64,000 nucleotides of DNA. Source: Trichormus sp. M33_DOE_039. GTDB lineage: Bacteria > Cyanobacteriota > Cyanobacteriia > Cyanobacteriales > Nostocaceae. Below the pieces are notes generated by a model that was not told the origin of the DNA, did not search any database, and saw only the letters and a program-made list of their open reading frames with translations. The translations under genes were made by a program, and so were the position numbers. Below are positions 41,991 through 46,546 of this stretch, piece by piece; position 1 is the stretch's first letter, and each line of letters starts with the position of its first letter. Location of the stretch: positions 62,001 to 126,000 of the forward strand of contig DVDT01000021.1 of the NCBI GenBank assembly GCA_015296085.1, written 5' to 3'.

Positions 41991-42317
41991 CTACTCTGAC
42001 GTACTACCTTTGGAATTAAGAACTTCCTGTAAACGAGTTCTAAATTCTCCTTTGGGGTGTCCGCCTTTGACTTCACCAATAATTTGAAATTCTCCTTCCG
42101 GCGAATCACAAATAATGTAGGTGGGCCATCCCATTTGAGATTTATCAGGATACTGGGTAAGCAAAATCTGGCGATATTTGCGATATGTGGCTGTATCCTG
42201 CATTTTCACGTCAATAAATTGCAAGCCTAGCTCTTCAGCTACCTTTTGGTCGTAAAATGACATTTTGTGGCAGATGCCGCACTCTTCAGAAGAAAATTTA
42301 ACAACAGCTAAACTCAT
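41991..42317 (-). CDS. Thioredoxin-like protein with CGIC active site
   Basis: VKFSSEECGICHKMSFYDQKVAEELGLQFIDVKMQD; MGWPTYII. Confidence 0.75.
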   Translation of the reverse strand: MSLAVVKFSSEECGICHKMSFYDQKVAEELGLQFIDVKMQDTATYRKYRQILLTQYPDKSQMGWPTYIICDSPEGEFQIIGEVKGGHPKGEFRTRLQEVLNSKGSTSE

Positions 42318-42993: not shown

Positions 42994-43032
42994 CCAAAAA
43001 ACAGGGAAGTTATTTATCAAGGTGTATTTACC
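42994..43032 (-). ncRNA. Degenerate NsiR1-like unit 0 (conserved 5' part and promoter box, terminator hairpin lost)
   Basis: ...gaagttatttatcaaggtgtatttaccaattaatt + TCCGGA at 43063-43068. Confidence 0.55.
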
Positions 43033-43102
43033 AATTAATTTTTCCAAGATAAATTTCAGTCTTCCGGATAAATTGATGTAAAGGTCGGCTGTAATTTATT
43101 CC

Positions 43103-43164
43103 AAAAAAAAAGCCCTAGTTGGTGGCAGCCAACCAGGGGAGTCAATTATCAGGGTGCATCTACC
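43103..43164 (-). ncRNA. NsiR1-like sRNA unit 1
   Basis: Minus strand GGTAGATGCACCCTGATAATTGACTCCCCTGGTTGGCTGCCACCAACTAGGGCTTTTTTTTT; TCCGGA at 43195-43200. Confidence 0.85.
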
Positions 43165-43236
43165 AATTAATTGTTCTAGAATTACACACCAAATTCCGGA
43201 GGAATTGTCACAAATGGCGTTGCTTTTTTGCATTAG

Positions 43237-43297
43237 AAAAAAAAGCTCTCGTCGGTGGCAGTCAATTAGGGGAGTTATTGATTAGGGTTCATTTGTC
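43237..43297 (-). ncRNA. NsiR1-like unit 2 (divergent, weak hairpin, no clear DIF1 box)
   Basis: Sequence similarity to other units; weak hairpin plus T-run. Confidence 0.6.
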
Positions 43298-43378
43298 AAT
43301 GTAATTAATTGTTGTCAGCGACAATTCAGTAACTTCTAAATAAACTCCTTATTCATGGAGTTACTGATTGTCAACCAT

Positions 43379-43440
43379 AAAAAAAGCCCCCAGTCAGGTG
43401 TTAGCCAACTAGGGGAGTTAGTTATCAGGGTGCATCTACC
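43379..43440 (-). ncRNA. NsiR1-like sRNA unit 3
   Basis: Minus strand GGTAGATGCACCCTGATAACTAACTCCCCTAGTTGGCTAACACCTGACTGGGGGCTTTTTTT; box TCAGGA (one mismatch to TCCGGA) at 43471-43476. Confidence 0.85.
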
Positions 43441-43515
43441 AATTAATTCTTCTACCTCTCACCCCCAACTTCAGGATGAATTTCTCAACATTGGCAATTA
43501 CTGTTTGCTACACAT

Positions 43516-43577
43516 AAAAAAAGCCCCCAGTCAGGTGTTAGCCAACTAGGGGAGTTAGTTATCAGGGTGCATCTACC
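43516..43577 (-). ncRNA. NsiR1-like sRNA unit 4 (near-identical to unit 3)
   Basis: Same RNA sequence as unit 3; box TCAGGA at 43608-43613. Confidence 0.85.
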
Positions 43578-43631
43578 AATTAATTCTTCTACCTCTCATC
43601 CCCAACTTCAGGATGAATTTCTCAAAATTAT

Positions 43632-43690
43632 AAAAAATCCCCAGCGGTCGCAACCGACTAGGGGAGTTAATTATCAGGGTGTATATACAT
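43632..43690 (-). ncRNA. NsiR1-like unit 5 (good hairpin, divergent 5' end, no upstream DIF1 box)
   Basis: Minus strand hairpin CCCCTAGTCGGTTGCGACCGCTGGGGATTTTTT. Confidence 0.65.
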
Positions 43691-43814
43691 AATAATAACA
43701 TATTTATGGTATCATAAAATACGTAATCTTCTCCAGATTGCTGGGATTTTCCTTAAAAATTAGAAATTTTGCCCTATTTCCTAGGATGAAATAGACTGGA
43801 AATATTAGTGATAG

Positions 43815-43874
43815 AAAAAACCCCTAGTTAGGTGTTAGCCAACTAGGGGAGTTGAAGATCAAGGTGCATCTACC
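43815..43874 (-). ncRNA. NsiR1-like sRNA unit 6, closest to hetF
   Basis: Minus strand hairpin CCCCTAGTTGGCTAACACCTAACTAGGGGTTTTTT; TCCGGA at 43905-43910. Confidence 0.85.
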
Positions 43875-44053
43875 AATATAGTGTTCTGGGCGGATGCCAA
43901 CTAATCCGGATAAAGTTGTAAATGTAGAGAAAGGAAAACCACTGTTTTGGAAAAAATCAGTAGTCGAATCTATTTACAGTATAAAAAGGAGCAAAAAATC
44001 GAATTGAAACTTTTGCGTTTCAAATTAGATTGAGGAGGCAAACGAGAGAAGTT

Positions 44054-46546
44054 GTGACCCAGGAATTTCACATTTCCGTGACTCCAGTAGGGCAGAATGA
44101 CTACTTGGTACGGACGGAACAAGTCGCGACAGGGGTTCCATTGGCAGAAGAGTTAGTGACCTGGCCTGTGGCTGATTGGTTAGCTATGGCTGGTCATTTG
44201 ATGAACGACCCCTTAAAGACAGTATTACAGGGAGAAATGATCGCTCCTAGTGCGATCGCCAAAAACTCTGTAAACTTAGTGGCATTGGGACAACAACTTT
44301 ATAATGCACTGTTTCAAGGTACGCTCAGAGATAGTTGGATTACTGCCCAAGGGATCGCCCAGAATCAACAACAAGTGCTAAGGCTACGTTTAGGGCTTAA
44401 GGATAATAGGTTAGCACGTCTACCGTGGGAAGTTATGCACGCAGGCGATCGCCCCCTAGCAACTGGCCCCTACATTGCCTTCTCTCGCTTCCAAAGTGGC
44501 ATTTCTCCAGCCTCTCGCGTACCTTCCAGCAATCGATCTCAACTCCCAGAAGATGGTGTAATTCGGGTGTTGATGGTGTTAGCTTCCCCTTCAGATCAAG
44601 CTAGTTTAGATTTACTCAAACAAGAAGCCATCAAACTGCAAGCAGAACTGCACCGTCAACTACCTAGATCCTTAAATAGTGGTCATTATCTGCCAGAAAT
44701 TGAACTCACCTTGTTAGATCAGCCAGGGAGAGAAGAATTAACCCAGGCTTTAGAACAAGGCAGATTTCATGTCCTCCACTATTCAGGGCATAGTAATTTA
44801 GGGCCGAATGGCGGTGAAATTTATTTAGTCAGCAATAGAACAGGCTTGACAGAAACCCTCACAGGCGACGATTTAGCGGGGTTGCTAGTCAACAACAACA
44901 TCAAAATGGCGGTATTTAACTCCTGTTGGGGAACATACTCCGCTACCACCGATATTCCTAAGGACTCTTGGGAACGTAACTTGACAGAAAGCTTAGTCAA
45001 GCGGGGTATTCAAAGCGTTTTGGCAATGTCAGAAAGAATTCCTGATGAAGTAGCACTCACACTTACCCAATTGTTTTATCGCAACCTTAGCCAAGGCTAT
45101 CCTGTAGATTTATGCGTGAGTCGAGTGCGTCAGGGATTAATTTCTGCCTATGGTTCGCACCAGATGTATTGGGCATTACCAATTTTATACCTCCAGCCGG
45201 AATTTAACGGTTTTCTCTACCCCAAAACTGCTGCCTATAATCATGCAGATGCCTTGGCGGAGTATAGCCCACCTCTCACTGCTAGTTCCAGTCCCACAGC
45301 TAGCTATTCTGCTGTCGTCGATCCGGATATGTCTGTACCAATTGAGGGAACGATTCCCTCAGAATTAGCCCGTGAAAATTCTGGCTTAGACTGGTTGGGA
45401 GAAGATACTTGGGGTGATTTAGTTGATGAAATTGCTTATGATGATCCCACCTATGCAGAAGATTGTGCTTTTGTGTCTGATATCTTTCGCCAACTAGATC
45501 AGCCAATTACTGAGAATGAAATACCTGAAACACCTCAGGAAATCAGACATCAAAGGCCAGATCAAACTGCGCTAGAAAGGCAGATGACTGCTTTACCTAG
45601 AGAAACAGAGTCACCAAGCATTGTACCCGTGACTAACAATGGCAGTTTTCCAAACTCACTGACAAATTTGCAGAATTTACATCCTTCATCATCAAGAACA
45701 CGCCAACGTCGTCAAAAGACATCAATTTTGGCTGTGGTGGGGGCGGGTGCGATCGCTACCCTGTTAGCTTTGACTTGGTGGTGGCAAAATCGCCAATCAT
45801 CCTTATCTGATATTCCTCCTATCCCTACCCAGTCTGCGCCCAGCCAGACCCCAGCAGATATCCGACAAATGCCTACGGAAATGGTGACAACCATTGCTAC
45901 AGAGAAATTAAATCAAGGTGACTTAGAAGCAGGGTTAGCAGCAGTAGAAGAATTACTCAATCGTAATGTGCTACCTGCTGCGGAAACAGCTTTGAATTTG
46001 ATTCCCTCCCAGCAGATCCAAAAGCCATCTGTTAACTTTCTCAAAGGGCGATTAGCTTGGCAATCTCTCAGAACAGGAGATACAAAATATAGCGTTGATG
46101 ATGCTCGTCGTTACTGGGAAAATGCTGTTCGGGGTAATCCAAATTCGTCTGAATATAAGAATGCTCTAGGTTTTGCCTATTATATGGAAGGAAACTTGAA
46201 TGAAGCCAATGCTTCTTGGTTACAAGCTTTGAATTCAGCACTGGAAAGGCAAAATTCCGATTCTCAGACACAACTACCTCCTGAGGCCTTAACTTCCTAT
46301 GCTGGTTTAGCTATGGGAATGTATAAATCTGCACAAAATTTATCAGGAAATAAACGGACTCAATATCTCAAAGAAGCCATCAAATCACGGCAAACCGTCC
46401 TCAAACAAGACCCGTTAAATTTCCAAGTCGATAAATTAAGCAACCATTGGCTGTGGACAGAGGAGATGATACGAGATTGGCGATCGCTCCTTCAAGAAAA
46501 AAGTACCGAGGCGATGACCTCTGGTCTGTTGGAGACCATCGCATAA
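44054..46546 (+). CDS. hetF: HetF, CHAT (caspase-like) protease with TM and C-terminal repeat region; ORF track starts at upstream TTG 44030, GTG at 44054 is likely
   Basis: VTQEFHISVTPVGQNDYLVRTEQVATGVPLAEELVTWPV; CHAT His in HVLHYSGHSNLG and Cys in FNSCWGTYSATT; TM ILAVVGAGAIATLLALTWWW; located beside the NsiR1 array. Confidence 0.92.
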   Translation: MTQEFHISVTPVGQNDYLVRTEQVATGVPLAEELVTWPVADWLAMAGHLMNDPLKTVLQGEMIAPSAIAKNSVNLVALGQQLYNALFQGTLRDSWITAQGIAQNQQQVLRLRLGLKDNRLARLPWEVMHAGDRPLATGPYIAFSRFQSGISPASRVPSSNRSQLPEDGVIRVLMVLASPSDQASLDLLKQEAIKLQAELHRQLPRSLNSGHYLPEIELTLLDQPGREELTQALEQGRFHVLHYSGHSNLGPNGGEIYLVSNRTGLTETLTGDDLAGLLVNNNIKMAVFNSCWGTYSATTDIPKDSWERNLTESLVKRGIQSVLAMSERIPDEVALTLTQLFYRNLSQGYPVDLCVSRVRQGLISAYGSHQMYWALPILYLQPEFNGFLYPKTAAYNHADALAEYSPPLTASSSPTASYSAVVDPDMSVPIEGTIPSELARENSGLDWLGEDTWGDLVDEIAYDDPTYAEDCAFVSDIFRQLDQPITENEIPETPQEIRHQRPDQTALERQMTALPRETESPSIVPVTNNGSFPNSLTNLQNLHPSSSRTRQRRQKTSILAVVGAGAIATLLALTWWWQNRQSSLSDIPPIPTQSAPSQTPADIRQMPTEMVTTIATEKLNQGDLEAGLAAVEELLNRNVLPAAETALNLIPSQQIQKPSVNFLKGRLAWQSLRTGDTKYSVDDARRYWENAVRGNPNSSEYKNALGFAYYMEGNLNEANASWLQALNSALERQNSDSQTQLPPEALTSYAGLAMGMYKSAQNLSGNKRTQYLKEAIKSRQTVLKQDPLNFQVDKLSNHWLWTEEMIRDWRSLLQEKSTEAMTSGLLETIA

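Follow-up and report, generated by a model that had tools for sequence, protein, structure and literature searches.

The NsiR1 array upstream of hetF

The window analysed here, the whole stretch of 64 000 nucleotides, carries a hetF gene, which Anabaena-like cyanobacteria require for their nitrogen-fixing cells, and, divergent from it, seven tandem units of the NsiR1 type, all on the minus strand between positions 42996 and 43875. Five of the seven (units 1, 2, 3, 4 and 6) pass the gathering score of 39 bits of Rfam family RF02399 (NsiR1), with 43.5–70.0 bits and E-values, calculated for the whole window, of 3e-5 to 8e-12. One further unit is a truncated match and one was recognized by eye. 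The features of the locus are as follows.

44054..46546, plus strand: hetF, CHAT-domain protease (PF12770, E 2.3e-29); likely GTG start at 44054 (MTQEFH...)
43813..43875, minus strand: NsiR1 unit 1, nearest to hetF, CACCTTGATCTT variant; Rfam 61.7 bits; exact DIF1 box TCCGGA at 43905–43910
43630..43690, minus strand: NsiR1 unit 2, degenerate; Rfam 43.5 bits; two mismatches in the seed; terminator kept
43516..43578, minus strand: NsiR1 unit 3, intact, CACCCTGATAAC type; Rfam 70.0 bits; DIF1 variant TCCTGA at 43608–43613
43379..43441, minus strand: NsiR1 unit 4, transcript identical to that of unit 3; Rfam 70.0 bits; TCCTGA at 43471–43476
∼43237–43297, minus strand: unit 5, remnant (GACAAATGAACCCTAATCAATAACTCCCC...T8), identified by eye; below Rfam reporting
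43104..43165, minus strand: NsiR1 unit 6, intact, CACCCTGATAAT type; Rfam 69.3 bits; exact DIF1 box at 43195–43200
42996..43033, minus strand: unit 7, remnant; shortened Rfam match of 19.8 bits; exact DIF1 box at 43063–43068
41991..42317, minus strand: small protein of 108 amino acids at the far end of the array; no Pfam match

This arrangement agrees with the sequence-only reading, which had proposed about seven repeat units on the minus strand with a GGTAGATGCACC start and a GC hairpin followed by a T-run, next to a hetF gene encoding a CHAT protease (now confirmed by PF12770, E 2e-29). The starts of successive units are 185, 112, 137, ∼142, ∼134 and 132 bp apart, and units 3 and 4 form a 137 bp tandem duplication with 95% identity.

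A DIF1 box (TCCGGA) at −35 is a mark of early heterocyst promoters (PMC6133370, PMC7377430). An exact copy is found 37 bases before GTAG (−37) in units 1, 6 and 7, and units 3 and 4 have TCCTGA, with a single mismatch, in its place. Unit 2 has no DIF1 box even if one mismatch is allowed, and none was seen in unit 5 on inspection of the sequence. A terminator hairpin with T-run is present in each of the units that pass the Rfam score (1–4 and 6); in unit 7 the hairpin is lost and the seed contains two mismatches. Both a DIF1-type box and a terminator are kept in units 1, 3, 4 and 6. Judged by these elements, the four look able to produce the RNA.

The RF02399 matches of five units above the cut-off (the similarity check that the earlier reading had suggested), the position and orientation beside hetF and the placement of DIF1 relative to GTAG support, at the level of sequence, the proposed orthology to the NsiR1 array of Nostoc PCC 7120, a known system.

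Comparison with arrays of named strains

For comparison we used 61 named heterocystous strains for which enough upstream sequence is available. In named heterocystous strains, the hetF orthologues that adjoin such an array share 59–82% identity with the gene in the window, with the best matches in Anabaena and Nostoc. The genome from which the window is derived falls into one genus-level group with Anabaena minutissima FACHB-250 and also contains hetR (PF18460). In the 61 arrays the number of units has a median of 6 (5–95% range 4–13) and the spacing between units a median of 138 bp (5–95% range 122–556 bp), with gaps reaching several hundred base pairs. The array in the window is typical in both respects, its seven units falling within the range, and the earlier description of unusually divergent copies with longer spacers does not hold.

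The unit nearest to hetF lies at a median distance of 182 bp from the hetF start, compared with 180 bp in the window. It has an exact DIF1 box in 60 of the 61 arrays and reads GTAGATGCACCTTGATC (the CACCTTGATC, CACCTTGAT variant) in 57 of them, while non-first units (CACCCTGAT type) contain CACCC in 356 of 366 cases. Because the first and the other units differ so consistently, the split between NsiR1.1 and NsiR1.4, whose difference was tested in PCC 7120 (PMC9045159), is by this sequence comparison old and fixed, and common to Fischerella, Scytonema and Nostoc.

Proposed function and predicted pairing with a HetP-homologue start region

In PCC 7120, hetF is inhibited by NsiR1.1, an antisense RNA to its leader. 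Commitment is delayed in the same strain by the hetP homologue alr3234, to whose start region NsiR1.4 binds (PMC9045159). The transcription start site of hetF in that strain is at −256 (PMC8406250), and if this overlap is transferred to the window then unit 1 is expected to be antisense to the 5′ leader of hetF. Removal of the −10 box of nsiR1.1 had little effect on a hetF promoter fusion (PMC8406250), which counts against the explanation proposed below.

The genome contains three HetP-like genes, of which we assign the one on contig C98 (MYQQ..., loci L312/L315) to the alr3234 type. The sequence of its start region, AUCAUCAGGGGAAACUAUG, has AUCAGGGG directly 5′ of the AUG and contains AUCAGGG, the complement of CCCUGAU in the seed. 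The predicted pairing with this region amounts to −16.9 kcal/mol for unit 3 (z = −3.0 against shuffles) and −14.0 kcal/mol for unit 1 (z = −1.8); these duplex energies leave out intramolecular structure and describe a potential for pairing. The stronger pairing of unit 3 agrees, within our own genus, with the difference between NsiR1.1 and NsiR1.4 tested in PCC 7120 (PMC9045159). For the other two HetP-like genes of this genome, predicted pairing at the likely starts is near chance.

Among 29 orthologues of the alr3234 type, 21 pair better than dinucleotide-shuffled sequences (p ≤ 0.05), with a median z of −2.7, the genomes being related and not independent of each other. Pairing is also stronger than at the remaining ORF starts of these loci (Mann–Whitney p = 4e-7, a value in which independence is overstated by kinship). 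Averaged over the 29 orthologues, seeds of the unit 1 type pair as well as those of the unit 3 type, and the target preference thus applies to our own genus but not throughout. In other genera the alr3234-type gene has a different anti-seed stretch directly before the AUG, for example AAAGGGUGCAU or AGGAGUGCAU. Despite the overstated p-values, the occurrence of anti-seeds specific to lineages speaks for a potential interaction between the sRNA and alr3234-type mRNAs having been maintained. Outside the family of our genome (f1) the picture is mixed: the seed is strongly complementary to HetP-like starts in genomes G015 and G060, and no complementarity was found in G012, G033 and G034.

To the directly observed sequence, promoter boxes, terminators, conservation and base-pairing potential, the work on PCC 7120 adds by analogy a probable heterocyst-specific expression and a probable repression of hetF and alr3234. 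HetR-dependent DIF1 promoters would most likely fire at every intact unit in cells that turn into heterocysts, giving RNAs of ∼60 nt that each stop at their own terminator. Unit 1, opposite the hetF leader, would block translation of hetF in cis, while units 3, 4 and 6, with the seed GUAGAUGCACCCUGAU, would pair with the Shine–Dalgarno and start region of the alr3234-type gene and thereby release the commitment brake. To this explanation as a whole, an NsiR1 array that belongs to an Anabaena/Nostoc strain forming heterocysts and acts in cis on hetF and in trans on the alr3234-type gene, we assign a probability of about 0.93.

A different view would be that the array is a relic with decaying units, in which only unit 1 is under selection, as a cis-antisense RNA on hetF, and this strain makes no use of the array to regulate the hetP homologue in trans. 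Three of the seven units do lack a box, seed or hairpin, and unit 1 is the most constant across relatives in both position and sequence. We nevertheless consider this unlikely, as units 3, 4 and 6 have retained seed, terminator and box alike, CACCC persists in the non-first units of relatives at the frequency given above (356/366), and the seed has its complement in the start region of the strain's own alr3234-type gene.

Sibling loci in the same genome and family

Outside the array, the same genome contains two more loci of the NsiR1 type, which share the 5′ sequence GTAGATGCACCCTG and have unrelated hairpins.

C91:54036–54086 (L005:1501–1551), minus strand: lgt/cobM sibling sRNA; RF02399 52.1 bits, above the cut-off; exact DIF1 box; own hairpin
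C14:10699–10751 (L007:1501–1553), plus strand: argJ sibling sRNA, upstream of argJ; RF02399 31.5 bits, below the cut-off

The names lgt, cobM and argJ rest on our reading of ORF translations. In blastn searches with ∼130 bases, the lgt/cobM sibling was found in 142 and the argJ sibling in 141 of the 145 genomes of the family. No DIF1 box is present at the argJ locus (C14:10699–10751); in its place, siblings of this type have an extended −10 and a conserved element resembling GGGTGTTACTCC. Because these elements replace DIF1, the argJ sibling is probably expressed under other conditions than the DIF1 units, to judge from its promoter sequence. Of the sRNAs compared, it has the strongest predicted pairing with the strain's own alr3234-type gene (−22.4 kcal/mol, z = −4.0), and in some relatives it is itself present in tandem. 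A further 16-mer match, at G000:C105:134162 just after a porin-like gene, was rejected as an additional sRNA: neither a DIF1 box nor a hairpin with T-run was recognized there.

In one locus from another family (L249, genome G048, family f22), gatB, an argJ-type sRNA, lgt, an lgt/cobM-type sRNA and cobM are all adjacent. This gene order suggests that the argJ and lgt/cobM sibling loci were once neighbours.

In total, 529 distinct units were collected with a seed pattern that allows one mismatch, and seed conservation in this set is partly by construction. Alignments of the sibling loci, obtained with whole queries of 126–131 bases, show the same constancy of the seed, although their display is seed-anchored. 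One could ask whether the conserved 5′ part is instead a tiny ORF (AUGCACCCUGAU..., MHPD), the RNAs being mRNAs for micropeptides: every seed includes an AUG, and in several siblings the frame translates as MHPD-stop or MHPG-stop. Beyond codon 4, however, the frame differs between units and loci (unit 1 reads MHLDLQL...), and there is no consistent stop or Shine–Dalgarno sequence. With the frame not conserved, we rejected this reading of the seed as highly improbable and continue to treat the units as sRNA genes.

NsiR1-type RNAs beyond the family and co-occurrence with HetR

Many further families, both in the order and in the class, have RF02399 matches preceded by DIF1 at an unchanged distance. 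Units divergent from an adjacent hetF occur in families f5, f12, f15, f21, f22, f49, f52, f54, f57 and f58, and units next to lgt and/or cobM in f2, f4, f12, f15, f22, f29, f30, f33, f46, f49 and f58. Synteny was established by blastp of flanking ORFs against the genes of our genome; some loci recovered one of the two genes and a few syntenic units were placed by the Rfam match alone. Orthologues of the 108-residue protein at the far end of the array adjoin hetF-linked sRNAs in families f5, f22 and f58.

In a class-wide sample of 294 genomes, HetR (PF18460) is present in 153, every one of which (153/153) has an NsiR1-type match, compared with 9 of the 141 genomes lacking HetR, several of these nine being weak matches or from incomplete genomes (Fisher p = 1e-73, uncorrected for phylogeny). 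The exact pattern TCCGGA-N29..33-GTAGATGCACC occurs in 146 of the 294 genomes and its reversed control in 0 of 294. Two genomes of the class sample, G435 and G450, have strong NsiR1-type matches and no HetR_C match; their HetR is lost, divergent or missed.

The copy number of units varies from 3 to 14 in relatives and units turn over, as might be expected of mobile or neutral repetitive DNA (MITE-like or of the STRR type) with a chance terminator in place of sRNA genes. Against this stand the constancy of orientation, DIF1 spacing, seed and T-run over all genera, the syntenic copies at hetF and lgt/cobM in many families, and the transcription of the orthologous array in PCC 7120 (PMC9045159). 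We regard such an origin as very improbable and retain the interpretation as sRNA genes.

Coordinates that coincide with those of named genomes show that family f1 includes Nostoc, Anabaena, Calothrix, Fischerella, Scytonema, Chlorogloeopsis and Hassallia. Since it holds every named heterocystous lineage that was placed, the other families are probably non-heterocystous. Tandem arrays of the NsiR1 type are also seen in families f2 (ten units in L237, genome G034), f21 (eight units in L244, G021) and f9 (six units in L234, G060), all three of which probably lack heterocysts; none of the three stretches yielded a hetF orthologue.

We think it probable that NsiR1 is one branch of a family of sibling sRNAs older than the heterocyst, with DIF1, the same seed, locus-specific terminators and fixed sites (hetF, lgt/cobM, gatB/argJ and elsewhere), present in every HetR-bearing genome sampled. 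The array would then have arisen in heterocystous lineages by expansion of an older sRNA gene linked to hetF, itself one of several sibling loci sharing promoter and seed. If this is true, control of NsiR1-type RNAs by HetR and DIF1 predates the heterocyst, and strains with heterocysts would have, besides the array, two or more siblings that could share its target sites.

Relation to known systems

The array alone adds one more strain to the known NsiR1 system; what deserves further attention is the wider sRNA family to which it belongs. Experiments in PCC 7120 that deplete or over-express NsiR1 would have to reckon with siblings of the same seed, if these are present and expressed there. NsiR1-type RNAs with DIF1 beside hetF in probably non-heterocystous lineages offer a way to probe the roles of HetR, HetF and DIF1 before the heterocyst. 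Parts of the account of the sibling loci may already be catalogued in Rfam or in the start-site tables of PCC 7120.

The array of PCC 7120 was reportedly described by Ionescu in 2010 and by Brenes-Alvarez in 2020 and 2022. Like it, the array in the window runs divergently from hetF and consists of units of ∼60 nt that have DIF1 promoters and terminators of their own, with a first unit unlike the rest and a hetP-homologue target whose start region is complementary. It differs in having seven units, three of them degenerate, where PCC 7120 has twelve, seven of them identical, and in having TCCTGA in place of TCCGGA in units 3 and 4. Nodularia spumigena CCY9414 likewise has tandem short repeats upstream of hetF, although 12 in number compared with seven here (PMC3610870).

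The literature that we searched treats the hetF-linked heterocyst array as the sole source of NsiR1, with one exception. RNA162 of Limnospira indica, a non-heterocystous species, is a 57 nt RNA said to resemble NsiR1 (PMC8400943), the only remark of this kind that our search returned. In the excerpt of that paper it is described without locus, promoter or target analysis, whereas here such RNAs are placed at hetF and lgt/cobM with DIF1.

Multi-copy sibling sRNAs are known from Escherichia coli, Pseudomonas, Bacillus and Sinorhizobium (PMC9045159). The NsiR1 family resembles these in comprising a number of almost identical sRNAs that have some targets in common and others of their own, but differs in that the 5′ seed and the promoter box are shared while the hairpins vary by locus.
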